Shown piece after piece: positions 106 to 54,800 of a stretch of DNA of 64,000 nucleotides (its first letter is position 1; each line of letters begins with the position of its first letter). This DNA is from Apostichopus japonicus (Eukaryota; Echinodermata; Holothuroidea; Aspidochirotida; Stichopodidae), in NCBI RefSeq assembly GCF_037975245.1, contig NC_092577.1, positions 511,001 through 575,000 on the forward strand, in the 5' to 3' direction. The notes beneath the pieces are model-generated. The model was not told the DNA's origin. It did not search any database and was given only the letters and a program-made list of their open reading frames with translations. The translations under genes and the position numbers were made by a program.

Positions 106-3100
106 ATGGCTTCGTCAAGCCTCGCAGCGTGGGACTATGTTGCCATAATTGGTTATTTTATTCTGGTGTTATGTGTTGGGCTTTACGTAAGTTGCTAGGC
201 GTATCATCTAAATTAAACTAGGGCCTAGTAGTAGTAGTTTATGACTAGGTGCTATGACCTATACTATAGCATGTAGGCCCGAGCTGGCCGGTTATAGCCT
301 AGGACTATACCTATACATAATTCCCTCATAAGTAACGAATGAGATTATAGTTAGAAGGATACTCCAGAGCGAAATTTATTTTGATGTATTATTAAAGCGG
401 GACAAAATCAAAGAATTCCTGCGAAAGTTGCATTATAATCCTATGTAGGCCTACTGCTTTTGAGATATTGGCAGGCAGACGTTCTTGCATTTTTTATTGT
501 AAGTGGACTTAAAGTTAAAGCAAACAGGTGTGATGTTATGGCTGCACACTGACTAAACTATGTATTAACATTTTTTCAATCTGTTGTTTTGACCCGTAAT
601 TGGATAGCATTGATTGTTTGCCAGCCTAAATTGGATGTGACGTTTTTGACTAATTACCAATTAATGCCTGTGACAAAGGTACAATATGGATACATCAAAT
701 TTTGGAGCAGCAAAATAGATGAAAATTTTAAAGAAAACCAAAAGATTTATTTGTCATTATGTATCAATGACATCACATCTGTTTGCTTCAAGTTCACTAT
801 ATGGTACAGGAGGTGACAACTTCAACTGCCAATATCTCGATCGTAAACAAAAGGTAGGATTTTTATGCAAATTCCACCAGAATGCTTGATAATATTCCTC
901 ATTGACATAGCAGAAATAAATTTTCTTTTGCCTTATCCTTTTAAGTTAAAAGGCCAGTTTTGTAGACCAGTTCTATAGGCACATTCATCATAAACTTTGT
1001 AATATGACCACTAGTTTTAAATGTATTCTGTGGATGTGCGGATCTGTGATATTGTTGTATTACAGTAAGTCAAGGTCAAAGTCACCCAAGGTCACCAGAG
1101 TTCAACTATTGGAAACCTTGTATATGCATGATATCTCGAGTTAGGCAGCATTGATACGTTCATATTTGGCATGTGGATGTATTATATTGAATAGAAGAAC
1201 TCAATTGATTTTGGAGGAGGTGAAAGGTCATCTGGGTCACCAGTGGTCAAACTCTGAAAACCTATTACACATGATATCTCATGTTGGAAATCATGCAATT
1301 CTCATACATGGAATATGGAAATTCTCATATTAAGTACAAGAATCCTGTTAATGTTGGCGTAGTTCAAACGTCATATGAGGTCAACAGATCAAATTCCTTT
1401 AAACATGATATCTCAAGGTAAGAATCATGGAAACTTCTCAAGGCCCCTATTGTATTTCGAGGACATGTATTGCCATGTGCAGTAGACTAACCTGTGTTCA
1501 TCATGCCATAGTGTAAATGTACATCAAAAAGAGTCATTCAGGATGTTTATAGTATGAGAGCTCTATTTCTACCGTGAACGAGCAACATTATAGTGTAATG
1601 AAGTCTTCGAAACCTCAATGCATTTTTGCATTCTGGTTATGGATGGCAAGCAAACTGGTTATAGCTTTTATCCAAATTGTCTATATGGCCTGACCATGTT
1701 TGGTAGCTCTAGCTACATTAATAGTTACAGCCTCAAACTTTGTTAGAAAGTCATGCAGTTATATAGTCAGATTTGGTCTGTACTGTGTCTGTATAATTTA
1801 TGTATACCAGGCAGGCATTCTCATTTGTTGTACAACATTGCAAAGATAATGCTTTCAATTTATTCAAACAAGTGCAAATGAAAAATAAGAAGAGAAAAAA
1901 CAAAACCATGGACACATGTATACTAGCTGTATCAATACAGTTTGATTTTATAATGTTTGGAAATTAATATGACTTCAGTCAGAACAAAGGTTACAAATCT
2001 TCTAAGTACTGTAATCAGTGTGCTAGAAAACTTGACAAACAGATCAGTTCTAAGTATATTGTTGCACCTGTTCAAATATATAATTCATAGAGACTAAGTA
2101 GGTTTCCAATATAGAGTCCATGGAAAGTAACTCTCACTGAAATGTAGTATATATTACTGGCAATAGATACCATCAGCTGAACAGGCAGTGTTAAAACAAA
2201 GGGAATAATTATGATGGCAGAAAATCTTACATTATATACAATTAAAGGAAATGTTGCATGTAGCTGTTTGTTAACAAAGCAGTACCTAATAGTATCGTAT
2301 TATGGTGAACATATCATGCATGCCACACCTTCATTTGCAGAATGTTCACCTTAAATCTTTGTGTAAAAGTAAGTTGGCCTGAGGTTTCGATCCTAGCAGG
2401 ATCTTCTTCAAAGGCTAAAAAAAAAAAAAAAAAATGGAAAAAAAAAAAAGCTTGAAAATGTTCACGTTAAATCTTGGTTAGAATTCTCAGATTACAGTAG
2501 ACAATATGTTAGTTTGAGTATAAACTGTACCATATAGTGTGTGTGGTACTGTATACTAGCCAAGAATGTGCAAGGTATTCAAATTTACATCTACTGTAAA
2601 TGAGTTTAAGTTACATTGCATGTACTCTGTGGAGTTTTTTTTAGCCAGTTATACTATGGACCTTGTCTAGCATGGTGATTTGGTGAACAGGTGGTAATTC
2701 AGCTTGTTTGGACAATACATGTACTCACAGTTTTATATTTATTGCTGACATCTGGATGAAATGGTTTCAATACATACATGTAATGTTTACATTGACATGG
2801 TAGGAATTCCCCAATAGCTATGAATGAGCTGTTTGGAATGTTCAAGTTAAGTATATACTGCATTTTTTTAGTCAATCCAGTCATGAATCAACAGACTTTC
2901 TTTCTTCACAGTCTCTCTGCCGTTCTAACAGAGGCACCGTCAGTGGTTACTTTCTGGCAGGAAGACACATGCTATGGCTTCCGGTAAGTATCCCTGAAAT
3001 ACCAAAGACTCCTGCATTTATCAAAACATCCCTGAATTACAAGAGACTCCTGCATGTATCAAAAACTTCCCTGAAATACAAGAGACTCCTGCATGTATTA

Positions 3101-6100
3101 AAAACACCCCTGAAGCACAAAAGACTCCTGCATGTATTAAAGACTTCCCTGAAATACAAGAGACTCCTGCATGTATTAAAACATCTCTGAAATAAAAGAG
3201 ACTCCTGCATGTATTAAGAACTTCCCTGAAATACAACAGACTCCTGCATGTATTAAAGGCTTCCATGAAATACAACAGACTCCTGCATGTATTAAAGGCT
3301 TCCATGAAATACAACATACTCCTGCATGTATTAAAAACATCCCTGAAATAAAAGAGACTCCTGCATGTATTAAAAAAATCCCTGAAATAAAAGAGACTCC
3401 TGCATGTATTAAAAACATCCCTGAAATAAAAGAAACTCCTGCATGTATTAAAAACTTTCCTGAAATACAAGAGACTCCTGCATGTATTAAAGACTTTCCT
3501 GAAATGAAAGAAACTCCTACATGTATTAGAAACATCCCTGAAATAAAAGAAACCCCTGCATGTATTAAAAACATCCCTGAAATACAACAGACTCATGCAT
3601 GTATTAAAGACCTGCCTGAAATGCAACAGACTCCTGCATGTATTAAAGTAAAAACTTCCCTGAAATAACAAAGACTCCTGCATGTATTAAAAACTTTTGG
3701 CTAATAGTAAGCAACTTAAAGGGGAATACTAAGGCTCCCTCCCGTATGACAATTAACCAATAGTGAAAATATTAAAGGAATTCATGAACATGAGTATTAT
3801 TTATATATATGTACACTACATGACTATATTAGACATGTGTTGCACAAACATATATCTAGAAAGATCACAGACTAAGAATGTAAAATATTTTGGGGTTGAT
3901 TTCCTTAGAACGAGTTCAATAGCCTAACAAATTCATTAACATGTCTTGAAGTATATATGATTAATACATCTGCAGCTGGAGTTGGTACTGTGGAATTTGT
4001 TAAGCTATTCCACATGGACGTACTACCATGTAATTAACATATGTTCCATCTAGCCGTAATTTTCATTTTTGTGTTTGATTTATCACCAGAAGTGGAGGTA
4101 TATTTAGCTTCAGTGAAATACTCATTTTCAAGCAGTCCATTGAAGCATAATGCAATACAACCAAGGATAAATGTTACAGTGTAAATGAGCAGCTATTTAT
4201 AGCTATAGAGCTGATATACTGTATTAATAAACATTCCGATTAATGTGTTATGTATGACTATAGCCCTCTTTTGAGGAGCTATTTATAGCTCTATATAGTA
4301 GAGTACTAGAGTTGATATACTGTATTAATAAACATTCAGATTAATGTGTTATGACTTAGATAGCCCTCTTATGAGGAGCTATTTATATAGTAGAGCTGAT
4401 TAAATTAAAACATTCTGATTTATGTGTTATGTATGACTATAGCCCTCTTATAAGGAGCTATGTAAAGCTCTATATAGTAGAGCTGATATACTGTATAAAT
4501 ATATACAATATGTATATAAATATATTTCAGATTAATGTATTATGTATGACTACACAGTAGCCCTCTTATGAGGAGCTAATTAAAGCTCTATATAGTAGAG
4601 CTGATATACTGTATAAATATATAAAATATGTATATAAATTTATATATTCAGATTAATGTGTTATGTATGAATATACCGTATAGCCCTCTTATGAGGAGCT
4701 AATTAAAGCTCTATATAGTAGAGCTGATATATAGTAAATCGGGGTAAAAAAAAACCACAGGGTAGTTGGGGTAAAAAAAACCCACCCCCACTACAAGTCG
4801 TGAGAAATTGAAACACATTTTTGTATGGTGTATGTGAAAACCATGGTGCCCAAGTCAATTCTGACATACTTTATTGATTGTTACTATTCTTTTCCATCGG
4901 CGTATCGATACTTTTAGCGCCGATTTTTCCCATACTCTAAAAATAGCAAATATTTAGGTTCTGAACACTGTCCTTTAACTTTATCCTGCAAAAAATATTA
5001 GAACTGATATAGAGGTTTTTGTTTCTTGGTTATGATAACAAGAGGTGTACCTACATGAATCAGTAATGTAATTACCCGCACGATCTGCCAGTTTTCTCGA
5101 ATGACGTGGATTTTTTTTATCCCAGGGTTTAGTGTCCGTTTGGGGTAAAAAAAGACCAGTCCTATTTTCCTCCCAAAATGGTTTATATTTATCACAGAAT
5201 GTTAGAACTGCTATATGATTGACACAGGGAGTACATCTATGCTCCTCTTATTTCTACCAATATAATAATTTACATTTTTATAACTAACTGTTGCCTGTTC
5301 TTAACCTAAGTTATTGCTATGTTAGCCTAGTGTTATAGCCTAACACAATATATGTCTGCTGTATGGTTATCTTGTTATTTTTAGAGTCCTAAATTATACT
5401 CTACCCTAAGTCCCAACCCCACAGCTGGATGTGATACTAATATATAGAATAACACTCATAAAACATGGTCAATAATGTTTCAGGGGGTATTAAACAGTCT
5501 TGATAGAATCTTGCTTAGTCTCGGAAGGTGGGGTTTGTTTCCCGGAGTTTATCGTTTGGCAATAGGTTAATTCATGCAGAACTCGATTGAAAATGCCCAA
5601 ATAAAGCTTTTCTAAAGTGTGCTGAAAATATTTCTGGTGGTTTTGCACATTTTCTTTGGTAGTATGTTGTTTTAACAGTGTGGACTTTTTTTACCCCAGC
5701 AGGGTTTTTTTATTACCCCAAAAATGACTAACAGCCGGGGTAAAAAAAAAACCACCCCTTTTCTGGAATTTCTCCTTTACTCATTGTGATTGAAATTTTT
5801 ATTATGGCTATTTAGGAAGGTATTCCCAATTGTCAACTGACAATGCTAAAATATCTACCTAAGCATCTACCTAACGAGTTTTATGTTAAACTTTAAGGAA
5901 ACGTTTTTTTTTTACCCCGTCTTACTATACTGTATAAATATATACAATATGTATATAAATATATCAGATTAATGTGTTATGTATGAATATATAGCCCTCT
6001 TATGAGGAGCTAATTAAAGCTCTATATAGTAGAGCTGATATACTGTATAAATATATATATGTATATAAATTTATATATTCAGATTAATGTGTTATGTATG

Positions 6101-9100
6101 AATATATAGCCCTCTTAAGCCCACTGCACTGAGGGAAAAGCACATACAGTTTGTCGTAATAGGGCTTGTCAAGTAGGCAATACCTTGAGTGTCATTAAAA
6201 ACATAAACCATAAATGTTAATTACATCCCCCTCCCCTCCCCCCTCCCATCCCAATCATCATTTAAGGTGGTTAGTGTATGCCATACAACATCCAGTTCAG
6301 GGAATGAACAATTGTGCCTTAAAATATTGGATAGCAATTAACACTATGCAAAAATGGCTAAATTATACAGATGGAACAAAAAAACACAGCTTTGTAATAT
6401 TGTCATCTTATGGTAATAAAAGAAAATTCATAAATTTCAGAAACATAAATGATATTTTAGATATATTAATTGTCTTCATTCTTGTTTCTGTCAGGTTGGG
6501 GCTTCTCTGTTTGCCAGCAACATCGGTAGTGAACATTTTATAGGTTTAGCAGGGTCTGGAGCAGCAGCTGGTATCGGAGTTGCAGCATTTGAATTCAATG
6601 TGAGTGTAACAGTTCAAGTTCATCTCTCACCAGTTTATGTGATATTTAAGACTTTGTGCTAGTTGCTGACGGTTAAGGGTATAGGCTGTGCACTATTGGT
6701 TATTTGATTAACAAATATAAATTATGAAGAGTTCCTAGCTGCTTTCTTGATTTCATTCTTAATTCTCCCACATTGGTGTTATAATTTAGTCACAGTGGAT
6801 AATGGTAAAGTTCAATGTATGTACTTATGTCTTTTAGTCCTCCTGCAAGCAGGAACTTGCGAAGAAGCCTCATTGGCTTATCAAAGCCTCAAGCTGACCG
6901 AAGTCAGTCTCTTACATTCATATTTAACATACATGATTATGAAGCGTATCACGACATATATGCACCTAAAATATCAACGCTCTCAACCAAAACTCATCAA
7001 GCTGTATGTAATTTGTTATTGCCACACTTCATTATAAATGCCTTTATTAAATTCATCTCCTTCTCGCCCTGTTATTTTCCTGGGGGTTTTCATCTGACAA
7101 GTAACCAATGTTTATTTGATTTTATTTACAGGCTTGCCTGCTGGTTCAACTCCTTGGATGGGTGTTTTTACCAGTCTACATAGCCAGCGGGGTGAATTTT
7201 TCAATTGTTCAATCAATATAGTATTCATTCATGTTGTACTCAATCGTTTATATTTCATATAATTAATCCTGTCAACCGTTTGGTAGCTGTACTCCATCAT
7301 ATTACATTAATGCAGTAATCATGCCTGTAGTAGGGTAATCAATCACAGAATATTTAAGTAGTACTCAACACTGCAATAGTGTACTCTGGCCATCGCATTA
7401 TGTTAGAATAGTACTCAACCCGGTAGAATAGTACTCCATCAGGTTATATTGGTAGAGACTTATTCAATCCTAGATTAATAGTATACTAGTACTCTCTCAC
7501 ATAACATTATTAGAGCAGTACTCAATCCTGTAGTACAGTACCAGCTCAACCCTGTAGCATGCAGTCACACCTCAGCCCTGTACGTAGTACAGTACAGTAC
7601 TAGCTCAAACCTACATCAATTAAAATACCAGCTCAACCCTGTATAACAGTACTAGCTCAACCCTGTATTACAGTACCAGCTCAACCCTGTATTACAGTAC
7701 AAGCTCAACACTGTAGTAGTAGCACCAGCCCTGCATTACAGTACCAGCTCAGCCCTGTATTACAGTACCAGCTCAGCCCTGTATTACAGTACCAGCTCAA
7801 CCCCGCATTACAGTATCAGCTCAACCCTGTATTACAGTACTAGCTGAACCCTGCATTACAGTACCAGCTCAACCCTGTATTACAGTACAAGCTCAACCCT
7901 GTATTATAGTACCAGCTCAAACCTACAGTAATTAAAATACCAGCTCAACCCATTGTTACAGTACAAGCTCAACACTGTAGAAGTACCCCTCTACAAATTT
8001 AAGTGTGCTAGTTGCGCGCAGCTTATGCGCCGAGAGCGAACATACAACAACGTTCGTAACTGGCGCACAAAAGTACGCAACCTGCGCACAACCCACGCGC
8101 TCCAAGGGAAGCGTGCGCTTTGTCTTAGCGCGCGCACACTAAGACGGAGCGCGCCCGTGCCATCTTAGCAGGCGCACGCTTCGTATTAGCGTGCACGTGC
8201 TTCGTCTTTGCACGTGCGCGCTTGATGTTAGCGCGCCAGTTCTTGGTTAAGCGTACAAAGAGGACTTAAATACTTTTGCTGACTTCTGAAGCAAACAATT
8301 TGGACTTAGAAAAAAATGTGAAGCAAACAATTTGGACTTTGAAAAAATTGCTTATATGTCTTTGTGCGCGAGTAGCTCTTGGACTTGAACCATGTGTAGA
8401 CTTGTGTAAGGTGGTGCGGTGAGCATACAAACTTCTGGGTCAGTTTCATGGGAACCCGAAGGCCCTTAGGGGTTCTTGAAACAATTCTGTAGGGTATATT
8501 GAACAGTATTTAAAAGCATGAGAAATGTTACAGTACAATTAGGAACGCAGGCTTTCAGTGAAATGTTACTTCAAATGATCTTCAATGAAATCAAGATGCT
8601 TGTGCACCTTGGGGAATAGGAGGAAAACAGGGCAATATTTTTCAAGCCTGACAAACAATTTCTAATGTAAGTTAACAACACCTTTAGAAATAAGATACCT
8701 CATTACAAAGAACATGTAGTGAAATGAAATTTATTTACACTCATCATACAGTACATGTAAGTAATGTATCACAGGCTAACAAATAGAAAGAATATCAAAA
8801 TTGAGGGAGAAACCCATCTTTTGTTTAGAAGCCAAAATAAGTATGACACATGTAATGTCAATTGTGAATTCATGGTTAAAACCAGTAAGGGTTTTCCTTG
8901 CACTACACCATTAACTTGAGGCTTATGCTCCATTGTTGATAAAGAACTACAATTTGGAATTTACTGTAATTACGTATATCAAGTACTACCACACCTCTTT
9001 CTCCACTCAATCCCCCAGCCTCAAAATGTATACCAATTCCTTTTGCCCTAATATGAGCAGAAAGCTGAATATATACACAGCATTTATTCATGTCTCACAA

Positions 9101-12100
9101 TGATTTCCTAAAGAAAACTAAACATTAAAATTGGTAACCTGAAGGCACTCATTTTTATTTGCAGTACACCCTGAGTATTAGTCTACCAGCAAAAGATATT
9201 ATTCCACCCTTTAGTCACTCTCTAGTAAATTTGGAGCTTGTGCAATGAAAGACTCTTCTGGATTTTCAAACTGCATGAAAATACATAGCTCAGCAATATC
9301 CTTTACAGGTATGATATGAAAAAAAACATCACCTTGATTTTTAACCATCAAAAGATGGTCTAATTTTAATGTTTTTCTGCAATTTGCAGCAATGCTTTCA
9401 GCCACAGAGTTCATGTGCTTTATCACAGCGAGATAATCTGAAGAGCACATACATTTCGCAGAGCAACTGCAGCATTTCGTACATTTTAAAAAGTACTTTA
9501 TCTGCCCAAAAAATGTAACTCCCTCTTTAAGGTATCTTACAGTGTATGAATTTCTTTTGGTCACAAGTTTGTAATCACTGCTGTAAAGTAACATGTCATT
9601 CAGCTGAAGACGAAGAAATTTGTAAAAAAGCTGTGGTTTATAACCAATACATTCAACTATCAATGGCAACAGATCTGACTCAGGGTTACAAGGCAAAAGA
9701 CGACCAACCACTGAAATGAAGCCATCTATCACCTCTGTCCTTGAGGCAGGTTTTTTCTTAACAGATAGTTTTTTAACATACTTCAATGTATCTGCCCCAA
9801 CAGACACATTTTGCAATAACTCTGGAACCTTCAGCAAAGAACACAAATTATTTGCTATTTGCAAATGTGGCTTTTTTGTGCCCTGCACCATGTGCAATAA
9901 TTTCCCATTGATATCTTCATATGCAAAGCATGAATACACCCACAGTGGACCAAGATTTCTCACTACACCTGGAAGATGGAGAAGCCCATGAACCACAGAA
10001 AGGCAGTACCTGTCTCCATATAATGTCCCAAACAAGTAACAAAACTGGATAAGTAAACTTTCACAGTATTTAATATCATTGACAGAAATACTGTCACTAT
10101 TCAAAATGACAACTGCCTCTACTAGTAATGCATAATGCTCAAAAAATATGTCATTCATTAAACCCTTTAGAGCTGGTAAAGAGTAATAAAACAGCCATGC
10201 CCTATATTCTGATGCCTTCCAATAACCCAAATGATCTTTAATACTCCTTGGAATTCGGGAAATGAAATGTGGAGGCTTTATCTTGGTAAGTCGCATATCA
10301 ATATTGTCAAGCAGTTTGGTTAAAGAAAATAGTTCTTTGGAATGAGATGTGTCGAACCATAAGTGTAACAATTTCTTAGATACTCCAAGCAGAACTGTGT
10401 GCATATAATCAATAGCCATTCCATCAGCAAGATTCATACCAAATGAACTTAGAAAAGTAGGCCCTTTGATGCCATTAATGGGCTTTTTCATTTGCATGGT
10501 ATGCACTTTCATAGCATCACTCAACATTTTTTCATGAGACCGTTTAGGACCAAGGGGATTAGTCATGCAAAAAGGATATGTCCACACCGAGCCTTTTCCT
10601 GTTGATGTTGAACAGCCTTTTTGTAAGCAATGAGAACACCCAAAAGCACCATTAAACTGCACCATATTTAACATTACAGCTCTTGCAGGAAGGTCACATG
10701 TACCGCAGAGAACCACAGCTTTAACTATGATAATTTCCTTTTTGTCCTGAGCATAAACTTCTACACCATCTTGAAGTTCTTTAATGGAAGCAAGGAATGG
10801 CTTCAGAAAAGTGCCCACAGCCGGTTTTGAACCAAGCCACAATCCAGCGTAAATCAAATTCTCTTTTAGGAACCGTCGTTTATGCGGCAACTCATTGATT
10901 GAAAAAAAGAGGGGCCAAAGGCTGACCTTTGATGATTTGAAGATGGGACATCCATCTGTATACCACATAAGAGATATGTTTCTTGGTTCATGTAAAAGTT
11001 TTCCGGGAGCAAAAAGACGTTTGTACTGCTCTCCATCATAAATATCCTCAATATTGTCACTGTTTTTCTTCTTTCTGTTGAATCTATGCTGCAAGTCATT
11101 ATAAAATCCCTGCCTTTTCATTAAGGTGCAAATTTGATTAACAATCGGTATTTCTATAAAGTAGGATATTCCACTGTTCTCCGAGACATTACTGCTGCAT
11201 ACTGGGCACCTAACATTATCAGAGGAGCTAAGTAAATAATTACAAAAATTGCAGAACTTGTGGAATTTCAAAGGATTTTTTAGAGTTCCATAAAATTTGT
11301 TAAACATATGAAGTGTTGTCTTGCAGATATTTGGCTTTTGGCAGTGCATTGAAATTAGCACAAGCAAATCAACCAGTGCAACACCAGTAATGCTATGGCT
11401 GCTTGAAAACATCAGAATCATCAACATACTTTCTGCCAAAGTTAGTGGAGCACCTTCATAAAGTGGTTTACTTCCTTCATCTTCTGCTTCATCATGGATA
11501 GATGGGGATTCCTTGCAGTCAAACCAGTCATCTTCAAGGTCGAACTCCTCTACACTGAGTGGGTCACACCAGTCATCACTTTCATAAATGCCTCCTACCT
11601 CTTTAATATTTGCCAGGTGGAGGTTATCATCATCCAGATCCCTGTGATGAGTACAGGAAAACAAAGTTATGGTTCAAATATAACCTGTTTATGTGTGAAC
11701 AACTATGTTAGAGTACAGCCAAGAACCTTGCATTGTTTTAGTGAATGGCAAGGAAACATGAGCTTCTTGCATGTTTCTATGATGAAACATTTTTCCATGA
11801 TTTAAGTGTACTTCTAAAAGTAAAGATGACTAGAAAAGTACATATAGAGGAAATCCCCAAACCCTTGACCAATTTGACACAGCATCGCACCAACTTTAAC
11901 TCTATTTTCTATTCTATTTCATTTGATCAAGGATTAAACTGCAACACTTACTAGCATCATACATGTCAAATTAACAACACTTGATAGATTTCACCCAACC
12001 TGCCTGGACATATTAAAACCCACACAAGCTCTGATCAGTACCATATATCTTCATTCTTGTTAAAGAAACCACATAAGCCCAGGTTGGTTAATAAAAAAAT

Positions 12101-18100: not shown

Positions 18101-21100
18101 TAAAATGACTTTAAACCTTAAAGTATTTCAATTATATTCTTAAGCTGCAACTGCACATTACCTAAACATCTCTCAGTATTCCATTTTCCCCCTTGCCATT
18201 TTTTATACCTTGAAAACTTTTGGTAGTTTAGGTTACACCAAGCAATCTGAATCGAGTCATTTTAGTTAAAAATCAATGATTTCTTTCACCTGCCATTTTT
18301 CTGCTGCACAATTAGATATTTTTTTTATATTGCATCAATCTTTTTTTATACTAACTATGATATCTTGCCAGTTTTTTTTTTATATTCATTTTAATTAAAC
18401 TGTTAACCAAAACTACATTAGTTCATTACTCTTATAAAGTTGCATGACACTGTTGACTTTATGAACAAAGTCTATGTTCACAGTTTTAAGCCTTGTTAGT
18501 TTCTCCAACCTTTAATAAAAATATTAAATCACTTAATTGTATTAATATTCTATCCGTCAACTGCCAATGCTTACACCCTAAACAATTCTACTCATCAGCA
18601 GTATTCTCACCAAGATCTTTTCTTTTCATTAAAATACCTTTTAATATTAATCTGTGCACATGAGACATGTTGTCTCATTTTACTTCACAATACATTTTAT
18701 TTTAGACATTTAAATTGAAAAATTTGTTTTCTTTTTTCTGCTTTGGAGCTATATGTGCTTATATAGCTGCATGCACCCTTTATCTTTTTGTGTGGTTCTA
18801 TATTCAACAACAAACTGCAGCGCGCTCAAGTCGCTCGCAGCGCGCTCAAGTAGCGGGCACAGCAGCTTGCTCAAGTAGCGTGCATTGTTTCTATGCTTCT
18901 GGCGCGCTACAGTGCGCAGCTTGCGTGCGACACGCTACTTTTTTGCTAGCGTACATTGTTTCAAATCGCACGCGATCCGTTTGCCTTTCGCGCGCTTAAA
19001 GCTGGACAGCGCGGCACGCTGTAGCGCGCAGCTTGCGTGCGACTTTTGCTAGCGTATATAGTTTCAAATCGCCCTCGATCCGTTTGCGTTTCGCGCGCGG
19101 CATGCTGGAGCGCGCAGCTTGCGTGCGACGCGCTACTTTTGCTAGCGTACAATGTTTCAAATTGCACGCGAACCGTTTGCATTTTGCGCACTCTTCTAAA
19201 ATCGCACGCGTGCAGACATGGGAAATATTTGTAGAGGGGTAGTACCAGCTCAACCCTGTATTACAGTACTAACTGAACCCTGCATTACTGTATCAGCTCA
19301 ACCCTGTATTACAGTACCAGCTCAACTCTGTATTACAGTACTAGCTCAACCCTATAGTACAGTACTAGCTCAACCCTGTATTACAGTATCACCTCAACCC
19401 TGTATTACAGTATCAGCTCAACCCTATATTACAATACTAGCTCAACCCTGCATTACAGTACCAGCTCAACCCAATAGTACAGTACTAGCTCAACCCTGTA
19501 TTACAGTATCACCTCAACCCTGTATTACAGTATCAGCTCAACCCTGTATTACAGTATAAGCTCAGCCCTGTATTACAGTATCAGCTCAGCCCTGTATTAC
19601 AGTATAAGCTCAACCCTGTATTACAGTATCAGCTCAGCCCTGTATTACAGTATAAGCTCAACCCTGTATTACAGTACCAGCTCAACCCTGTATTACAGTA
19701 TAAGCTCAACCCTGTATTACAGTATAAGCTCAACCCTGTATTACAGTATCAGCTCAGCCCTGTATTACAGTATCAGCTCAACCCTGTATTACAGTACCAG
19801 CTCAACCCTGTATTACAGTACTAGCTGAACCCTGTATTACAGTACCAGCTCAACCCTGTATTACAGTACCAGCTCAACCCTATAGTACAGTACTAGCTCA
19901 ACCCTGTATTACAGTATCACCTCAACCCTGTATTACAGTATCAGCTGAACCCTGTATTACAGTATCACCTCAACCCTGTATTACAGTATCAGCTCAGCCC
20001 TGTATTACAGTATAAGCTCAGCCCTGTATTACAGTACCAGCTCAACCCTGTGTTATAGTACTAGCTGAACCCTGCATTACTGTATCAGCTCAACCCTATA
20101 GTACAGTACCAGCTCAACCCTGCATTGCAGTACCAGCTCGACTCTATAGTACAGTACCAGCTCAACCCTGTATTACAATGCTAGCTGAACCGTGCATATA
20201 GTACAGTATCAGCTCAACCCTATAGTACAGTACTAGCTCAACCCTGTATTACAGTACCAGCTCAACCCTGTATTACAGTCCCAGCTCAACCTTTTATTAC
20301 AGTACTAGCTCAACCCTGTAGTATAGTAGCAGATCTGCAGTTCCTTTCATGTTTGATTTGTTTTCTAGGTTTGTACTCTTCCAGAGTACATGAAGAAACG
20401 TTACGGAGGCCAGAGGGTTCCAGTCTTCCTTGCTCTGCTCTCACTGATCCTCTATGTATTCACCAAGATATCGGTATGAGTAATTGTGTTAGTTAATTAA
20501 CATACAATTAATTAAAGTATTATTTAACTTGTATGAACACTGCAAATAAGATATCGGTGTGAGTTACATTTGTATTAGTTCATTAACATACAATTAATTA
20601 AAGTATTATTTAACTTGTATGAACACTGCCAATAAGATATCGGTGTGAGTTACATTTGTATTAGTTCATTAACATACAATTAATTAAAGTATTATTTAAC
20701 TTGTATGAACACTGCCAATAAGATATCGGTGTGAGTTACATTTGTATTAGTTAATTAACATACAATTAATTAAAGTATTATTTAACTTGTATGAACACTG
20801 CAAATAAGATATCGGAGTAAGTTACATTTGTATTAGTTAATTAACATACAATTAATTAAAGTATTATTTAACTTGTATGAACACTGCAATGCTCTTGATC
20901 TGCATTGCTAATTCTCTCAAACATTGAACCAGTGGATCATAATTAAGCAATGTTTCCAGTAATCATTTCTATATTATAATGAATGTTTGTGCAGCAGTGA
21001 GCTGCATGTCGGCATGATCTTGATGGACAAAGATCTATGTACATTTTTAAAAAAATGATATCATTAAGCTATGCAAAGTATTTTGTGCTTATAGGCCTAT

Positions 21101-41067: not shown

Positions 41068-44000
41068 ATGACTGCTACATGTTTAATCCTAAAGAAACCC
41101 TCCATGGAATCTCAAAATTACTTACTGACTGGAGGATGCTCTGGGAATCATCCATTATTTCCTACCAACCCAGATGAACCTTCACTTTTGACAGAAATAG
41201 AGAAGCTCTTTGGTGAGGATGAAAAACAAGTGGAAGAACGGCCAAAGACAGGAGTATACTTTCACACATCACCGTTTAATTCCACCCAGAAGTCGAGCAG
41301 AAGAAATTCATTTCACTGCCGTGTGCCATCTAGGGAATGGTTTAAGCTCTCTCCAAAGTCCAAATTTCAAAGGAAATCAAAGAAAATGGCAAAACTCTAT
41401 CGAAATAAAAGTGACTCTCATCTCCATCATTGGGGTCTGTGCAGCATTAAAACATTTCCAACTCTTACCAAAGAACATTCTTTCAAAAGCTTGATTATTC
41501 CATTTACTCCTGTGGCCAAAGTTCAAAGACAGTTATTTACTCCAGACTCCGGCTACGATAGCACTTTGGAAGACGTCAATGGAAATTCAACACCACGAAG
41601 ACCAAAATATATCATCGGTAGTCATATTAGATCCAGTAAATTAGACATAGTCCATGAAATACAGAAGAGGGTTCCAGAGTTGATAACTAAAATTCTGGTT
41701 TATTTATCAGAGAAAGATCTAACAAGGTGAATAACGCACATACCTTTATTTCAGAGCTACAGTAAGTACAGTATGTTTGAGTGGATAAATGCAGTGGTAT
41801 TTAGAAGCAATTAGACCTAGCATCTGGAAAGCCATGGGGGCAAGATCTGGCCACGTATGGTATAATAAGGAGGGTTAAATTCATCACAGGAGAAATTCAC
41901 AGATTTCCAACATCTGACATATCAACAACACTGCAAGGCAGCAATTTTGAATAGGTCAAGAGAATCTAGTTTAGGTGAGGTGAGTGTGGGGCAAACACTC
42001 TAATTGCTACAACATACCTTCAACTCTTTGGCTTTTAAACCTATGTGCAACCATCAAGCAACAAGTCATGCAAGATCTATTGATAAAGATACTTTACTAG
42101 TCTACAGATGCTCAGCAGAAATACGAACATTAATTTATTTTATTTTTTATTTATTTCAGTTTTGTTTGGGTTTCTAAATGCTGGAGGGAAGTTTTAAGTC
42201 ATGAAAGAAGAGACGATGACAGAAGGTTGGCATATGTTAAGAAGAAGAAGAATGAATTTCAAGCAAAGAAGGTAAGAGGCCGTACCCTGGCTGGTTAGAG
42301 GCTGTACCCTGGTTAGATGCTGTACCCTGGCTGGTTAGAGGCTGTACCCTGGCTGGTTAGAGGCTGTACCCTGGCTGGTTAGGGGCTGTACACTGGCTGG
42401 TTAGAGGCTGTACCCTGGCTGGTTAGAGGCTGTACCCTGGCTGGTTAGAGGCTGTACCCTGGCTGGTTAGAGGCTGTACCCTGGCTGGTTAGAGGCTGTA
42501 CCCTGGCTGGTTAGAGGCTGTACCCTGGCTGGTTAGAGGCTGTACCTTGGCTGGTTAGGGGCTGTACACTGGCTGGTTAGAGGCTGTACCCTGGCTGGTT
42601 AGAGGCTGTACCCTGGCTGGTTAGAGGTTGTACCCTGGCTGGTTAGAGGCTGTACCCTGGCTGGTTAGAGGCTGTACCCTGGCTGGTTAGAGGCTGTACC
42701 CTGGCTGGTTAGAGGCTGTACCCTATCTGGTTAGAGGCTGTACCCTGGCTGGTTAGAGGCTGTACCCTGGCTGGTTCACCCATAGGGAAACCACATGAAG
42801 GGGTCACAAGCATATGACGGTTTGGAATAATAACTCAGAGGTAATTGAGGGTAGCGAAAACTTCCAAAGGAAACTTTCCAACTAACAGGCATTTGGCAAA
42901 TGAAACTAAGACAGCTATTTGTCCAATTTCAGAGAGTGGAGCCCACTTTCTGGGGTGGGGTTGGGAGTGGGATGTGACTTGGACCACTATTTGCCCCACT
43001 TCAGACAGTGGAGCCGGCTTTCTGAGGTGGGGTTGGGAGTGTGGTTTGACTTGGACAGCTATTTGCCCCACTTCAGATAGTGGAGCCTGCTTTCTGGGGT
43101 GGGGTTGGGAGTGGGATGTGACTTGGACCACTATTTGCCCCACTTCAGACAGTGGAGCCGGCTTTCTGAGGTGGGGTTGGGAGTGTGGTTTGACTTGGAC
43201 AGCTATTTGCCCCACTTCAGATAGTGGAGCCTGCTTTCTGGGGTGGGTTGGGAGTGGGATGCGACTTGGTAGTAGAGTAGGCTGAAGGACAGGTAGGTAA
43301 AGGTTTAAGGTTCCTTTCTGTTCAATGCAAATCATGTTCTACCTCACCTGTTATTTCAAACAATACAGATTAGCTGGAAGTAAATATCTCAACTTAATCT
43401 TTTCATTCTCCGAACAGGAAAATCTTGCTCACGTCGACCATCAAAACAAATCAGTGACTCGGTCTTCTCTCCTGTTTGGTGACATCCAGGAAACAGCTAA
43501 ACCTCAGAGGTTGCAGGCATCGTCGTCATTCTTATCTTCTAACAGTTTAAGGTCTTCCAGACACGAGGAATTTTGGCAGGTACTGAATAAGAACTATAAT
43601 ATGTTTAATGGATGCTTTAGAGCCAGATACTGAATAGTAACTATTGAGTGTTCAATGGATACTTTAGAGTCAGGCACTGAATAGTAACTATTGAGTGCTC
43701 AATGGATGCTTTAGAGCCAGATACTGAATAGTAACTATTGAGTGTTCAATGGATACTTTAGAGTCAGGCACTGAATAGTAACTATTGAGTGTTCAATGGA
43801 TGCTTTAGAGGCTTGCATGTGATATATCTGGTTCTACGATACTTTGCTTTTTACTTTCTCAAGAGTGGGGAGGGAGAGAGGGGTACCATTTAGCATATAC
43901 ACATCATCGTTATGGTAATTTATTGGAATAGTGATGCTGATTCCTTACAAAGTGGTGACTCACAACAAGTCTTGCTCTTCATTGAATACATTTTTTAAGC

Positions 44001-44258
44001 CATTTCCTCTTTGTGTTCTTTCTTTCAAAGGCAAAGCAATCTCTACGAGATGGGGAGATGCTGATGAAATGTCACTGTGGATCTCCTGCTACAATCTCGT
44101 CATCCATCTCAAAGGCTACGTGCAATAAATGTCAGTCTAATATCTGTACCAACTGTGGGTCTTGTTACCATGGCAACAAGCCATGCCAGAAATCCTCACG
44201 TATCAGTGGGAGTGGGATATTGACCCCAACAAGTCGCAGAAACTTAAGAAGACTCTGA
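41068..44258 (+). CDS. FBXO5: Emi1-type F-box protein, inhibitor of the anaphase-promoting complex
   Basis: Coding exons 41068-41726, 42160-42271, 43418-43579 and 44031-44258 join in frame to 386 residues, slightly short of human EMI1. Seen in order: a phosphodegron DSGYDS (residues 160-165) of the type read by beta-TrCP; an F-box (about 203-240, KRVPELITKILVYLSEKDLT then FVWVSKCWREV); KKENLAHV across the exon 2/3 junction, a KEN-like motif; RSSLLFGD, a possible D-box-like RxxL; a zinc-binding ZBR domain (about 325-365: CHC, CNKC, CTNC, CYHGNKPC); and a C-terminal RRNLRRL. The ZBR plus terminal RL tail is diagnostic of Emi1/Emi2 proteins, which block APC/C substrate ubiquitination until SCF-mediated destruction. 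A single ancestral Emi1/Emi2 (FBXO5/FBXO43) gene is likely in invertebrates, so the paralogue name is approximate. Introns 2 and 3 start with arrays built on their donor sites. Confidence 0.9.
42272..42775 (+). repeat. 22-bp minisatellite starting exactly at the donor of FBXO5 exon 2
   Basis: Intron 2 opens GTAAGAGGCCGTACCCTGG, and the next unit is GTTAGAGGCTGTACCCTGGC. About 23 copies follow without a break. The first unit is the donor itself (GTAAGA); later units have GTTAGA, a weaker donor. Unit variation is very low, pointing to recent homogenisation. Confidence 0.95.
42930..43275 (+). repeat. About 68-bp tandem repeat with 138-bp higher-order period
   Basis: Five copies within FBXO5 intron 2 carry CTATTTGCCCCACTTCAGA, AGTGGAGCC and GGGGTGGGGTTGGGAGTG. 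Two variants alternate (GGGATGTGACTTGGACCACT and GTGGTTTGACTTGGACAGCT), giving a 138-bp dimer. The overlapping ORFs on both strands (42835-43335) are repeat translations. The CTTCAG in each unit looks like an acceptor but lacks a long pyrimidine tract. Confidence 0.92.
43580..43815 (+). repeat. 47-bp tandem repeat starting exactly at the donor of FBXO5 exon 3
   Basis: Five units begin at 43580, 43627, 43674, 43721 and 43768. The first is the true donor, CAG|GTACTGAATAAG. The next ones read CAG|ATACTGAATAG, CAG|GCACTGAATAG, CAG|ATACTG and CAG|GCACTG, so the unit includes the last three exon bases (CAG) and the copied donors have lost the GT. The alternation makes a 94-bp dimer. Confidence 0.94.
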
Positions 44259-44940: not shown

Positions 44941-44944
44941 GGGC

Positions 44945-46790: not shown

Positions 46791-46799
46791 AGGACTCCT

Positions 46800-47845
46800 C
46801 CAAACCAATGTAAGTTCAAGCATTATCTGTAAGTTCAAGCATTATCTGTCTCTGTCATTATCTGTCTACCCTTCCCCACCTCATTTGGTTCACTCTTTCT
46901 CATGTGAACTTTAAGACAGTTATTCAATGTTTCAGAAGTCTTTCTGAGTAACCCACATGATGCTTAATTGTTTAAATTACATTATAAAAGGAGCGAACTT
47001 GAAGATTGACTTGGTAGGATAAGCAGTTTATAATTGATCCATGATAAACTTATACAATGGAAACAAAGTAAAATCATACAATAGAAACAAAGGAAATTCT
47101 TTGCATTCAATGAAGGTTTACATAAAGTCCTATCACACAGCAGAATCTATTGTAAAGGCTACATAATCATTTCCATTGTAGATGTTAGTGCAGTCCTTGT
47201 TTGACATAACAGTAAATTCTGCAGAAATACCCAAGAAAGTGCGTAAATTGTGATATTTTACTTTTCTCAACAGCAGAAGAAGTTGGGAACTTGATAAATT
47301 TGCTACTTTTACGAGCTCTTTCTTATATTTTAATTTTTTAATGAAGTCACTTGACCACACTTTATCAACATAAAATAACACCTGTTAGACCTACACTTCA
47401 AGGTTACATCACCAATTTCAGGAAGCAAATGCTATCTTTGGTGTAGCCAATATTATGTACTTTTGAAAATTGCGATATCAATGACAAATACTGTAAGAAG
47501 AACGTGTTTGTTCAGTTACTATGTTAATTGTAGCTCTTTGGTATAAAATCATTTGTGAATATGTAAAGCTCTTTCCACAACTCCCAGGACAATATTACAT
47601 GACATAAGTCCAATTCAAGGATTGAAATGCCTTTCCAGCAAAATAGAGCATTTAAATTAACTTTTTAAATTTTCTCAATTCTGCAACTTTAGGGAACTTT
47701 ATTTAATATGTTTAAACAAAAGGTAACTTTTTAAATAACAAAAGGGTTCACGTTACTTTAAGGAAATGATTTTTTTTTTTAAATTTAATTATGGCAAAGG
47801 TGTATGTATTTTGAGGTTTCTTCACAGAACTGAGAGGACATAATC
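46800..47845. other. Intergenic, nothing recognised
   Basis: About 1 kb of AT-rich sequence between arrays; only a 19-bp doublet (GTAAGTTCAAGCATTATCT) near 46810-46850 stands out. The minus-strand ORF at 47133-47381 has no family signature. Confidence 0.5.
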
Positions 47846-47849
47846 CCCT

Positions 47850-48240
47850 GTGTTCCCCTGACTCCACCACCCAGACTTAAAATGTTCCCCTGGCTCCACC
47901 ACCCAGACTTAAAAATGTTCCCCTGCCTCCACCACCCAGACTTAAAATGTTCCCCTGCCTCCACCACCCAGACTTAAAATGTTTCCCTGCCTCCACCACC
48001 CAGACTTAAAATGTTTCCCTGCCTCCACCACCCAGACTTAAAATGTTCCCCTGCCTCCACCACCCAGACATAAAATGTTCCCCTGGCTCCACCACCCAGA
48101 CTTAAAATGTTCCCATGCCTCCACCACCCAGACTAAAAATGTTCCCCTGCCTCCACCACCCAGACTTAAAATGTTCCCATGCCTCCACCACCCAGACTTA
48201 AAATGTTCCCCTGCCTCCACCACCCAGACTTAAAATTTTA
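47850..48240 (+). repeat. 31-bp minisatellite downstream of TSEN34
   Basis: About 12-13 copies of a unit with CCCCTGCCTCCACCACCCAG then ACTTAAAATGTT. ORFs on the minus strand with GWWRQGNIL repeats are translations of it. The next 300 bp (48241-48540) show no feature. Confidence 0.93.
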
Positions 48241-48544
48241 CTCCAAAGAATAGTAAGTAATTCCATGCAATGCTTGGTCAAGGTGAAGATTATTAAATCA
48301 AACTTTTTGATTGGTACAAAATTATATTCCATTGTCTTATGTAGATTTCAATCAGTTGCAGTATAATAACAGCTTCTCAAAGTTGGTCAGAAGAGATATT
48401 TTTTGAACAATCAAAATGTTTGTAATCTAGAACTGAATCTATTCTGATCTGTAACATCCCTTAGCTGTACTCTTTACCTCCCCTTTGAGACACATGACCA
48501 TAAATAGAGGGACAACAATGAGAACCTGTGCAGTATATCCAGAC

Positions 48545-48800
48545 CACTTGGTAGTGACACAGACCTCACATTTCCCTGGTAACCGCTCATATTCCAGACC
48601 ATTTGGTAGTGACACAGACCTCACATTTCCCTGGTGACCGTTCATATTCCAGACCACTGAAGGGACATAGACCTCACATTTCCCTGGTGACTGCTAATAT
48701 TCCTGACCACTGAAGTGACACAGACCTCACATTTCCCTGGTGACTGCTCATATTCCAGACCACTGGAGTGACACAGACCTCACATTTCCCTGGTCATCTA
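48545..48800 (-). repeat. 54-bp tandem repeat containing the last codons and stop of TSEN34
   Basis: Five copies read on the minus strand. The first lies in the coding exon and encodes QGNVRSVSLQWSGI plus TGA. Four more follow in the 3' UTR with CAGGGAAATGTGAGGTCTGT then CAGTGGTCTGGAATAT variants. The copies keep most of the coding pattern, some including similar stop positions. Confidence 0.93.
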
Positions 48801-51800
48801 AGGAACAGAGAAGTACAGTTTTCTTTACGATGGGGCCAAGTCTGCCATAGGAAATGATCATCTGTGTAGACATGGATTTCTGGTACGGGAGGCAAACAGC
48901 AATAAAAGTGGAGTGGTACAACAACGGATCACCTGGTTGGAACAAAGCAAAGATAGACCAATAAATAGAGCAATGGAACCAAGTGCGTATGAAAACAATA
49001 TTGGGCAGTAATAAAGATACCACCTAGGAAGGAGCAACCTACACTATGTGATGTTCGACAAACCAACTGCATTGTAAATTATTGCTAATACTTAGTGCAG
49101 GGAGATGCTAGAGTAGCAGCTCCTTGAACACTGGGTAAACACAAGGTGAACACCCAAGGGACACAAGGTGAACACCCAGGGAACAATGTGAACACCCAGG
49201 GAACAAGGTGAACACCCAGAGAACACAAGGTGAACACTGAGTAAACACAAGGTGAACACTGAGTAAACACAAGGTGAACACTGAGTAAACACAAGGTGAA
49301 CACTGCGTAAACACAAGGTGAACACCCAAGGGACACAATGTGAACACCCAGGGAACACAATGTGAACACCCAGAGAACACAAGGTGAACACCCAGAGAAC
49401 ACAAGGTGAACACCCAGAGAACACAAGGTGAACACCCAGAGAACACAAGGTGAACACCCAGAGAACACAAGGTGAACACCCAGAGAACACAAGGTGAACA
49501 CCGACAAAACAACATGTCCACCCTCTGTTGTCATTTAGAAATAAATATCAGTTTCTATAAAACTGTTAAAAACAACTATTCATCTTTAATTCTGTTTGAA
49601 CAGCTCAATGATCCAAACATCACTTATCCCTGATGTCTTCTACATAGTTCTAGTTGTTATGAAGATACCTGACATCCACATTACTCCATCACAGGGAATA
49701 CCATCAATGCAGAAGAGATTCATATAGACTTCTAGTGATGAGCAATTCATAACACAGAGTTCATCATTCAGGATGAGAAATTACCTTTATAAATTAGAAA
49801 GTCTCCCCCAAACTTCATTCCAGACGTCAAGTAGTACCCCTGCTCCCAAAAATGTAAAAACACAGCAGCTCGTATCCTCTCCTGGTCTGTGGATGGGAAC
49901 GACCAGTCGTTGACTTCAGTCATATCAGGGTTGACGGTCTCTGGCAACAAAAACACAAACAAGTCTGGTATCAGTAAGGGTTTCTGTTGAATATTTATGA
50001 CAAGTTCTGCGACAAATAAAGGTCTTGCAAGCTGTACCTAGTCTTGACTTTGCCTTCATTCTTGTGAAAGAATTGAGTATGTACATGTTTATGCAACACT
50101 ATCTCTCCACATTGATGACATATATATAGTGAATATTATTTACAAACAATAATATAAAATAAAGTAACATCCTTCACTGTCCAACCTTCCACCACCCCCT
50201 CCCTCCCCACCATGTTCCAAGCCATCCCCTCCTCAATGAGATTAAGCAAATTTTGTCTAATCAATTTAATTTCTTAACTGTGTAAATCATGTTTACTTTA
50301 ATATACAATACAATACATAGAATCCTTTTGCAATACATACTTTATACACAGAAATAATAGTTCTACAGTTCATTTACCAGTGAATAGTTGAATGAGGCAA
50401 CCATTATCAGTAACTGTACAACCAGCTTGGGTCATTGGCAAGTCCATTGGTGATGATGACTGGTCTGCTTCTTCACAGCCCTGCTTATTCTCTTCGGGTT
50501 TGATGAGCTGTTTAGGAGAGGGGTCGACCATTCCATCAGCCATTTGATCTTCAATCTCCTCAGTGGTAGCTTTAATCTCCTCAGTGGTAGCTTTAATCTC
50601 CTCAGTGGTAGCATTAATCTCCTCAGTGGTAGCTTTAATCCCCTCGGTGGTAGCTTTAATCCCCTCAGTGGTAGTTTTAATCTCCTCAGTGGTAACATTA
50701 ATCTCCTCAGTGGTAGTTTTAATCTTCTCAGTGGTAGTTTTAATCTCCTCAGTGGTAGCTTTAACCTCCTCAGTGGTAGCTTTAATCTCGGTGGTAGTTT
50801 TAATCTCCTCAGTGTTAGTTTTAATCTCCTCAGTGGTAGCTTTAATCCCCTCAGTGGCAGCGTTGATCCCCTCAGTGGCAGCGTTGATCCTCTCAGTGGC
50901 AGCGTTGATCCCCTCAAGGGTAGATTCCATCACATGTGACTCACCATCTGTTTGTTTCAGTTTCAACAGCTTTGTTTCTTTTTCAATGACTGTGTTGGTC
51001 TCTCCTGGCCTGGAATCTGTTACTTTACTAACTTCATCTAGATTTGGCGGGCAGTTTCCTGTACAAGGGTTTGGCATTGTTTGCTCTTTGGTACTATGGT
51101 ATGTTGTCACATTAATGTGGATACTGAAGCAGGTAGTTGCTTCAGTAGTCTCTTTACCAAGCCTGGAGTCTATCAAGTTCAAATCTATCGGTGGTATATT
51201 TGTATTGCTGGTGCTTGAGGTAGAGGGAGACATATATGGAAGTGTAGCAGAAACTCCGTCCTTCATTCCGAGGCGAGAACAATTAGACGTCAGGCTAGAA
51301 CTACCCTGAGAGGTGTCCATGTTGGTGTCCTCGTTGACAAGAGGAGGCAGTTGTTGCAAGCTTGTTGTTTCTAAGGAAGCGGGAAGTTCTCTTACATTAT
51401 TCAAAGAAAGTGGTCTTTCTGCTTCTAGTTTGTCGTCTACTCCAGTGGGAGTGTCTTCATCACCTGAATATGTAATGAGATGACTTGTTGACTGGTTTGG
51501 ATTGGTTGAAGGACCCTTCCTATCACTCCATAGCTTAGAATTTCCATCGATGTCCATCTCATCTAGACCCTCCCTAGCCTGACTACTGTCTCCCAGAATG
51601 CACTGGTCGGTCGCATCTTTTGAACTGCTCTTTTCCACGATGGGGAACCAATCCCTATGAGCAACATTCATATCTTTCACCTTGCTATCATCTCTAGCTC
51701 CCACTTCCCAGTCACATGTCTTAGCTCCTCCTACTCTGCCATCTGGATTCTCTGGGACAGTCTCTGCTGCTTGTAAGGTTTCAAGTTTCTCCTTTTCGTA

Positions 51801-54800
51801 TTTCTTCATTTGTTTCTGTTTCCTCTTCTTCTTCTTGCTAAGTTGAGATTGCTTTGAATTTCGATAAATGTTCTCCTTCGCTTGCATCTGCTCCAAGTAA
51901 ATCGACTTCTGCAAAAAAAGAGGAAAGAAGACTGCAGTTGACACAGCTAGTTAGTAGATTCTAGTAGTAGGAACTACCTTAGGGTGGCAGGTAAGCTGAT
52001 TGCAGTTTAAACTAGCAGACCCATCCACTACTTTAGAAGCTAAGGTATCCCGCCATCAGACTGCAGTTGACACAGCTAGTTAGTAGATTCTAGTAGTAGG
52101 AACTACCTTAGGGTGGCAGGTAAGCTGATTGCAGTTTAAACTACCAGACTCATCCACTACTTTAGAAGCTAAGGTATCCCGCCATCAGACTGCAGTTGAC
52201 ACAGCTAGTTAGTAGATTCTAGTAGTAGGAACTACCTTAGGGTGGCAGGTAAGCTGATTGCAGTTTAAACTACCAGACCCATCCACTACTTTAGAAGCTA
52301 AGGTATCCCGCCATCATACTGCAGTTGACACAGCTAGTTAGTAGATTCTAGTAGTAGGAACTACCTTAGGGTGGCAGGTAAGCTGATTGCAGTTTAAACT
52401 AGCAGAAATGCCAGACCCATCCACTACTTTAGAAGCTAAGGTATCCCGCCATCATACTGCAGTTGCCTCAGCTAGTTAGTAGATTCTAGTAGTAGGAACT
52501 ACCTTAGGGTGGCAGGTAAGCTGATTGCAGTTTAAACTACCAGACTCATCCACTACTTTAGAAGCTAAGGTATCCCACCATCAGACTGCAGTTGACAAAG
52601 CTAGTTAGTAGATTCTAGTAGTAGGAACTACCTTAGGGTGGAACATAAGTTGATTGCAGTTTAAACTAGCAGACCAATCAGCTACTTCAGTAAGCTAGTA
52701 TTCCACCGCCATACTGCAACTTTAAGTTAAAGTTCAGATCACATTCTGGCCAAACCTTTATTTTAACATTTATCAGATAGAGAGAGCCCCTATCCTGAAG
52801 CAAGATCACTAAAGAAAGCGAGCACACCATAGAAGGAATGGAAACACACCATAGAAGGAATAGAAACACACCTCATCCTTCCCCAACTTCTGTCCCTTCT
52901 CAGGTTTTGTAATGAGAAACTCACCTGTTTCTCAAATGATTCCTTCCTTGCTTCCTGGAAAGTGGTAATATCATGTTGGGAGTGGTAGGGAAGATTGAGT
53001 CTCATCAATTTAGCAACACCTACCAATGAAAAGTTAAAGAAAGATGTGAAGCCATTGGCTTGGTCCTTGAGTGAGTTTGTAAAACAGTTTAATACTGTTA
53101 ATACAGGATTATAGGAGCAGCCCAAATAATGTTTGTTGATACAATTGCTTCAATGTTAGACCTGGAAATCCAGTCAAATTCTTTGACAGAAGCTTGCTTT
53201 TATACCTGCTTACAATGTGTTTATGTTCTTCCAGTGGCAGACAAATGCAAACTGTGCCCTTGTCTACGGCCAGATAAGGAATCCTCTGGCATTTAACTAG
53301 CATACAATTATCATGAATTTAGAGGCCTAGATGTATTCATCTTATTACCAAATATCCTGTGTTAATCACAGAATGTTAGTTTATTTGAAGCCACCTACTC
53401 AAGTTACTATATAATAAAAGGTATGTGCTGTTATGTAACAACTGTGTCACTGGTTGGTACCTCATCTGTATATCTGTGCTGTTATGTGACCACTGGTTGG
53501 TATCTCATAGACTATATGTGCTGTTATGTAACAGTAGTAATCTAGAGATTATGGAACTGAAAACTTACATTGCTGCTGATTATGCGCCAAGGCCAGTGTT
53601 GGGTATTTTTTTTGGGGGGGGGGGAGAGGGGGGGGAGGGGAGGGGAGGTAGAAATAATTTAGTGTTCAAGTTTTGTGTAGCATTTCCAAAGGATCTGGAT
53701 TTTTCCTCTCATCGACTAATCTTTAGTTCCTGAGTAGAAAACTGCTATCTATACACTTGTATATCATTTTGCGATGAGATACAGGAAAAATTATTCCCTG
53801 GAAGTGAAGTGAAGGGTAGGGTGAGGCAAGGACTGGTCTTGGGTTCATCATCTTACCATAAGTAATAAGAGCAAAAGCCTCTTCTGGCATAAGTTTTAAT
53901 GGAAGACCAAGCTGGTTGTTCTGTCTTGGAGCTCGAGGGAGTGAACCAGTCAGTGCTCCAACTATGTGATGAGTATCCCTGAGCAGCCTAACATCTATCA
54001 ACAAAAGAAGAAACATTATCAAGTTATTAATAAACAGTTGCTTCTGGAAGATGTCTTACCTAACCCCCCCCCCCCCACACAACCAGAGAATGTTTCGTTT
54101 AATAATTATGATAAAGAAGAACTGTAATATTTAGCAACAGGATTGCACATACTGTATGCAGTACAAGTAATGCACTGATCTTGTTACTAGATGATTTTGC
54201 CAATTTAACCGATATTTCAAATACAACTTTTGGCTGATACTGATCCAATACTGATAACAGAAAAGAAAGATATGTAGCCTAACATTAACCCATATCTGCA
54301 CTAAATCCCTCTTCATTTCAATCATTGCATCCCTGCTCGTTCAACCTTATCTCTTTACCAGTTACTTCATTGTGAACATGAATGAATTCTAATAAAAATA
54401 TAAATGTTTCATATTTCTTTTAATCTTTGTTAATTTCTTATGAACTTTAATTAGGTAATTGCTGATCACTTAATTAATGCTTCTCTTGCGGTGGCCTAAA
54501 GTAAAGGACGTGTTTGAACGTATTTTACCTCAGGTTTTTCTACATTAGGAGAGAGAGCACAAAATTGTAATAAGATTGCATCACAATGACACAGAATGGG
54601 GTTGGTTTATAAACCAACATATTTTCAACTTTCAACAAAATATCAGTAAATTACACACATTACTGATACCGATATCACTGATATTGGCCAATACCGATAA
54701 ACGATGCCACACTAGCAGTGGCGTCACCAGACTTTTCAGTCTGGGGGGGCACAGGGGGCACCAGCATTTGATGGGGGGCACTTAGGTGGATACGGATCGC

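Follow-up and report, generated by a model that had tools for sequence, protein, structure and literature searches.

The closest described counterpart of the repeats examined here is a variable number tandem repeat (VNTR) in intron 18 of the human gene ABCA7. It is a 25-base minisatellite that adjoins an exon and ranges from approximately 12 to 427 copies, and the first two bases of its unit are the exon 18 splice donor; the excerpted text of PMC5954066 also describes retention of a single unit, skipping of exon 19, and a link to human disease risk. An initial annotation of a 64,000-nucleotide stretch of the sea cucumber Apostichopus japonicus (contig NC_092577.1, positions 511,001 to 575,000 of the forward strand; here, the window) had reported minisatellites repeatedly built on exon boundaries and had proposed that they may be seeded there. 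Our analysis confirms that observation in part, and the proposed explanation is not the best one. Such arrays probably reflect local tandem duplications near exons that are blind to splice junctions and are tolerated since the outermost copy keeps the junction.

Four window arrays resemble the ABCA7 VNTR, as excerpted in that source, in that the adjoining exon's splice site is part of the unit, and the array at exon 2 of an FBXO5-like gene is a close structural parallel. The ABCA7 VNTR is a single human locus for which population and splicing data exist, whereas the sea cucumber cases comprise the four window arrays and 11 of 414 junctions sampled elsewhere in the genome, all known from sequence alone; unlike the human repeat, some of them carry long exon stretches. 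Intron gain by tandem duplication, a model cited as Rogers 1989 in the excerpts at hand, likewise copies exon sequence and splice signals. In that model the duplication supplies the splice sites of the new intron, whereas in the four window cases the other end of the intron lies outside the array, and we rejected intron gain for these four because the array touches one intron end only. The Caenorhabditis elegans minisatellite CeRep25B is likewise linked to introns, near alternative exons, but it is a named repeat with regulatory motifs (excerpt of PMC4039745), whereas the two sea cucumber units tested have matches listed at their own locus only. No parallel closer than ABCA7 was recognized among the matches listed in the open-licence PubMed Central (PMC) literature; the excerpts of PMC8724738, of PMC12783039 (minisatellites in an earthworm metallothionein intron), and of PMC3223203 (a 7-base repeat in a dog LHX3 intron) held no closer match.

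Arrays and splice junctions in the window

Tandem Repeats Finder (TRF) returned 61 rows for the window, which we merged at a period of at least 10 and a score of at least 90 into 29 arrays covering 13,680 bases (21% of the window). The window arrays are real. Models of four genes were read directly from the window sequence and contain 63 junctions in total. The three genes that carry the arrays discussed here are as follows.

106 to 35246, plus strand: sodium:solute symporter gene, 15 exons, open frame of 657 residues (Pfam SSF, E 1.4e-130), with GT/AG at all junctions
41068 to 44258, plus strand: FBXO5-like gene, 4 exons; its F-box match of 19.8 bits is below the Pfam cut-off of 24.3
last exon 48932 to 48748, minus strand: TSEN34 gene, 6 exons (Pfam tRNA_int_endo, 8.8e-19)

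We take the second gene to be FBXO5 from what is known of the family beyond its sub-threshold F-box match, and we presume that the third, which Pfam places in tRNA_int_endo, is TSEN34 within that family. The arrays and related features are listed below.

2991 to 3696, plus strand: 39-base array beginning 7 bases into symporter intron 2 (donor after 2983)
20465 to 20889, plus strand: 86-base array; the unit holds the last 9 bases of symporter exon 5 (20369 to 20473) plus the donor
28179 to 28640, plus strand: array in symporter intron 10 with a unit similar to the interior of exon 11
28870 to 29030, plus strand: decayed partial copy of exon 11, including its 3' splice site region; the true exon 11 (29109 to 29274) lies downstream; score 94, shuffle maximum 27
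29320 to 30882, plus strand: symporter intron 11 array with repeated CAG|GCTGGT stretches resembling a 3' splice site, stopping 68 bases short of the acceptor of exon 12 (30951)
31637 to 33918, plus strand: 31-base array of 74 copies, holding a polypyrimidine tract, CTCCTAG, and the first 7 bases of symporter exon 13 (33912 to 34127)
42271 to 42776, plus strand: 22-base array whose first base is the last base of FBXO5-like exon 2 (42160 to 42271), with the donor inside
43577 to 43810, plus strand: 47-base array holding the last 3 bases of FBXO5-like exon 3 (43418 to 43579); GT is absent in all 4 located copies
48538 to 48794, minus strand: 53-base array in which the final codons of TSEN34 and its stop recur into the 3' side
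51929 to 52718, minus strand: array with one end 20 bases from the acceptor (51908) of TSEN34 exon 4

Five arrays had been said to have a unit holding a splice junction. Four do, at symporter exons 5 and 13 and FBXO5-like exons 2 and 3, with 9, 7, 1, and 3 exon bases, respectively; the 74-copy array at exon 13 stands out most. The fifth, at symporter exon 12, was rejected: the sequence of the 68-base gap between array and acceptor scores 26 against a shuffle maximum of 34, and a short CAG|GCTGGT match is all the likeness that remains between the acceptor and the intron 11 array. Other parts of the description stood. The array at the TSEN34 coding end contains that end and its stop (45 aligned bases, score 80 versus a shuffle maximum of 25), the intron 10 array resembles the inside of exon 11 (score 46 versus a shuffle maximum of 35), and two further arrays abut the exon 2 donor of the symporter and the exon 4 acceptor of TSEN34, at 7 and 20 bases. 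Because a decayed copy of exon 11 shares its intron, the exon 11-like array probably began as an ordinary exon duplication.

To compare these positions with chance, we placed the 28 non-coding arrays at random, in 2000 runs under each of two rules. An array edge lies within 10 bases of a junction in 5 of the 28, against a mean of 0.35 when arrays are placed outside exons (no run in 2000 reaches 5) and of 0.63 when partial exon overlap is permitted (P 0.001). Twelve arrays lie within 100 bases of a junction, versus 2.8 or 4.2 at random (P at most 0.001), and 4 overlap an exon versus 1.57 (P 0.07). The window is the discovery set, chosen for this pattern, and its P values are no independent evidence.

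Junctions and their flanks across the genome

For an independent sample, we searched the genome (671,581,487 bases in 35 contigs) with the symporter and with the Pfam domains Cpn60_TCP1 (here TCP1), Kinesin, and Myosin_head. The match rows used were 48 of 68 for the symporter (11 in the window and 9 long single-frame rows dropped), 53 of 57 for TCP1 (4 long single-frame rows dropped), 124 of 126 for kinesin (2 stop-rich rows dropped), and 70 of 70 for myosin. Neighbours were merged, and we took all 29 symporter and all 39 TCP1 clusters together with 60 kinesin clusters drawn at random from 81 and 45 myosin clusters drawn at random from 61. Each was fetched with 500 bases on either side, giving 173 regions (L001 to L173) of 258,008 bases with no N. 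Among 243 exon hits, a splice-site score trained on the window passed 224 donors and 190 acceptors, or 414 junctions, and rejected 19 donors and 53 acceptors. The sampled junctions are predictions from domain matches and this score, made without transcripts; the L008 acceptor was set by hand from reading the sequence.

Junction-containing arrays do occur elsewhere in the genome. They enclose 11 of the 414 junctions (2.7%; 95% interval, 1.3 to 4.7%), in all four gene families and on six contigs (L014 twice, L166, L138, L068, L055, L169, L107, L050, L008, and L033). Their units hold from 2 to 129 exon bases, a range that a uniform spread fits (Kolmogorov-Smirnov P 0.37, n = 11). In one sampled symporter exon, the last 129 bases and the donor are repeated approximately 4.6 times; in a TCP1 exon, the last 31 bases and the donor are repeated approximately 12 times, reaching the end of the fetched stretch. 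Donors and acceptors do not differ significantly in the sample (7 of 224 and 4 of 190 spanned; P 0.56).

The part of the proposed genome-wide habit that was not supported is a significant enrichment of junctions over their own flanking intron. As the expectation for junction-blind duplication, we used the 34 array edges that face an exon from 11 to 300 bases into the intron. This predicts 6.8 spanning arrays by the shortest period (P 0.08) or 7.8 by the best period (P 0.16), against the 11 observed. Likewise, the edge excess over random placement in the window has no significant counterpart in the sample, where 4 edges lie within 10 bases of a junction versus 2.5 expected from the flank (P 0.24).

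A measure free of array edges points the same way. We scored 24-base stretches with a copy (at most 3 mismatches) within 450 bases, excluding low-complexity sequence. On the donor side, such duplicated 24-mers make up 6 to 8.5% between intron positions 84 and 400, 3.3% where the intron begins, and 0.5% at 84 bases into the exon; on the acceptor side they make up 5 to 9% beyond 100 bases, approximately 2% at the junction, and 0.5% inside the exon. Astride the junction, 8 of 411 (1.9%) are duplicated versus 25 of 387 (6.5%) at +204 in the intron (Fisher P 0.002), and the same fall toward the junction is seen in the window. Array coverage climbs away from exons as well, through 3.0, 5.7, 8.2, and 8.7% in the sample (from the first 60 bases to 300 to 450 bases) and, in the window, from 11% near exons to 44% at distances of 500 to 1000 bases. 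Junctions are a dip in local duplication, with no peak. Taken together, the sample shows no junction seeding and suggests that junction-containing arrays are mostly a by-product of arrays that are common near exons. The window, rich in arrays, exemplifies a pattern that also occurs elsewhere in the genome, and the junction-containing cases of this pattern are close in number to what the crowding of arrays in exon flanks would predict.

As a mid-intron control, we drew 20 stretches of 2 kb (L174 to L193) from the 39 places in these genes where sampled exons lie over 4.5 kb apart. These 40 kb hold 2 arrays (1.2% of bases) and 7 duplicated 24-mers in 595, whereas 215 kb within 500 bases of exons hold 57 arrays (7.4%), a rate 5.3-fold the mid-intron rate (P 0.003). 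Arrays therefore do not start at random in long introns, a result that favors the initial annotation. Part of the near-exon excess may be dilution by transposons, because the mid-intron stretches are more repetitive (22% versus 9% with similarity to another stretch of the sample) and every control intron is long. In the window, arrays make up 1.8% of the bases lying over 2 kb from any exon, but most of those bases belong to one transposon-bearing stretch; excluding that stretch, the figure is 6% of only 2.3 kb.

Origin of the arrays and competing explanations

In the sequence of events that we favor, intronic DNA within approximately 1 kb of exons would readily undergo local tandem duplication, and some duplications would grow into minisatellite arrays. 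The starting duplications would be blind to gene structure, and one that crossed an exon edge by chance would yield copies carrying the exon end and the splice site. Growth, presumably by slippage or unequal exchange, would take place on the intron side, and the array would be tolerated as the exon-proximal copy retained the original junction and reading frame. The copy that is spliced would be the outermost one. It had been argued that growth combined with selection predicts arrays lacking exon bases. That argument fails, as a duplication across a junction leaves the outermost copy intact, and therefore no codon is changed while that copy is spliced.

The array evidence fits local duplication whose end points are random, with growth afterwards. 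Among the 56 of 57 near-exon arrays long enough for the test, 7 of the 12 that touch an exon resemble it above 60 exons of other regions, versus 0 of the 44 that do not touch one, and we rejected on this ground the idea that arrays are offspring of nearby exons in general. Two-copy duplications across a donor occur as well. One myosin region (L149) holds such a duplication across an exon end and its donor; its copies lie 220 bases apart and show no difference in the 48 bases compared. It illustrates a likely first step of array formation, and may be a recent event or an assembly duplicate. With up to 3 mismatches allowed across the 671.6 Mb, all 66 matches listed for the 31-base exon 13 unit and all 32 listed for the 24-base unit of symporter intron 4 lie at their own locus, which suggests that both units arose locally. 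A dispersed satellite or transposon-borne repeat was rejected for these two units on the same matches.

The 24-base unit forms two arrays in intron 4, at 7619 to 7979 and 19241 to 20332, on either side of an 11-kb stretch that carries a Transposase_21 reading frame (9211 to 11673). A transposon probably split one array into two; no inverted repeats of at least 30 bases were reported around the element.

The copies of splice sites within arrays were scored after training on the sampled junctions excluding these arrays. A scan located junction copies in 14 of 15 arrays tried (L050 gave none), and 130 of the 162 located copies keep GT or AG. For exon 13, AG is kept in 59 of 73 located copies and none of the 73 scores above the true site. 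Over the 14 bases around the splice point, the copy adjoining that exon and the true site agree; use of this copy would shift the frame by one. All 21 copies at FBXO5-like exon 2 are weaker than the true site, and in L166, L055, and L138 copies and true site score equal. Among competing donors, serine/arginine-rich (SR) proteins can favor the one nearer the 3' splice site, which in these arrays would be a copy; this calls for caution about use of the outermost copy, which we infer.

Several results weigh against junction-blind duplication. The spanning count exceeds expectation in nine of ten looks across score thresholds and families, falling below it in kinesin, and two looks reach P 0.042, uncorrected for the ten: scores of at least 200 (11 versus 6.0) and the symporter family alone (3 versus 0.8). 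Were mid-intron density the right baseline, the expected numbers would drop to 1.7 spanning arrays and 0.43 edges at most 10 bases from a junction, and the 11 arrays observed would be six times too many. Measured in this way, though, the excess extends over the entire flank, where it is greater than at the junction itself. Across the 14 arrays, the true site outscores the average of its copies 9 times, equals it 3 times, and falls below it twice (sign test P 0.065), which hints that copies are not wholly neutral, and weak selection against them is possible. Finally, there is the window edge excess of 5 against 0.35 to 0.63.

One possibility is a genome-wide habit in which slippage, R-loops, or template switching tied to splicing starts arrays at splice junctions. 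The window edge excess and the slight sample excess of spanning arrays (P 0.08, or 0.042 at the higher score threshold) are in keeping with this. We consider it improbable: no peak appears across the 414 sampled junctions, at which duplication instead falls; the counts of 11 against 6.8 to 7.8 and of edges at 4 against 2.5 show no significant enrichment; the exon share of the unit runs from 2 to 129 bases, whereas seeding at splice sites would tend to fix it; and none of the 44 non-touching arrays resembles its own exon above others. The idea of junction-seeded repeats, though appealing, should not rest on this window.

A second possibility is a selection barrier only, in which intronic arrays grow until they reach an exon and their edges pile up at junctions. 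The increase of array coverage with distance from exons looks as if exon edges were protected, but stopping at edges leaves unexplained the units that hold up to 129 exon bases, and the sample has no significant pile-up within 10 bases of junctions, and we consider a barrier alone improbable. That the assembler inflated or misplaced the arrays is very unlikely, since copies within the four junction arrays differ from each other (TRF matches of 87 to 96% at the basic period), the coding frames and the junctions are undisturbed, such arrays lie on six contigs, and the assembly described in the excerpt of PMC10344927 was built from HiFi reads, which counts against an artefact if it is the same assembly.

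Two further features were noted in the window. The long TSEN34 exon 4 (1531 bases) contains an in-frame 21-base coding minisatellite on the minus strand (50549 to 50923), and the remaining gene is as follows.

starts at 57133: MCM gene, 10 exons modelled (Pfam MCM, 1.5e-46)

Splice-site copies as possible natural experiments

The excerpted text of PMC10344927 gives 19,828 genes, with transcripts averaging 7,737 bases, exons 194 bases, and introns 1,286 bases. By our own arithmetic this corresponds to approximately five introns per gene and approximately 200,000 junctions, and at the 2.7% of our four-family sample several thousand of them would lie in arrays, as an order of magnitude. We tentatively suggest that the exon-flanking kilobase might be a birth zone of minisatellites, in which several thousand junctions could have acquired tandem copies of themselves that are tolerated or even used. 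These might amount to naturally occurring trials of splice-site competition that span 2 to 74 copies, with the true site tending to be the strongest. How the spliceosome chooses among near-identical sites is put to the test wherever an array copies a whole donor or acceptor, and a genome rich in such arrays would offer hundreds of natural cases that could be read from RNA data.

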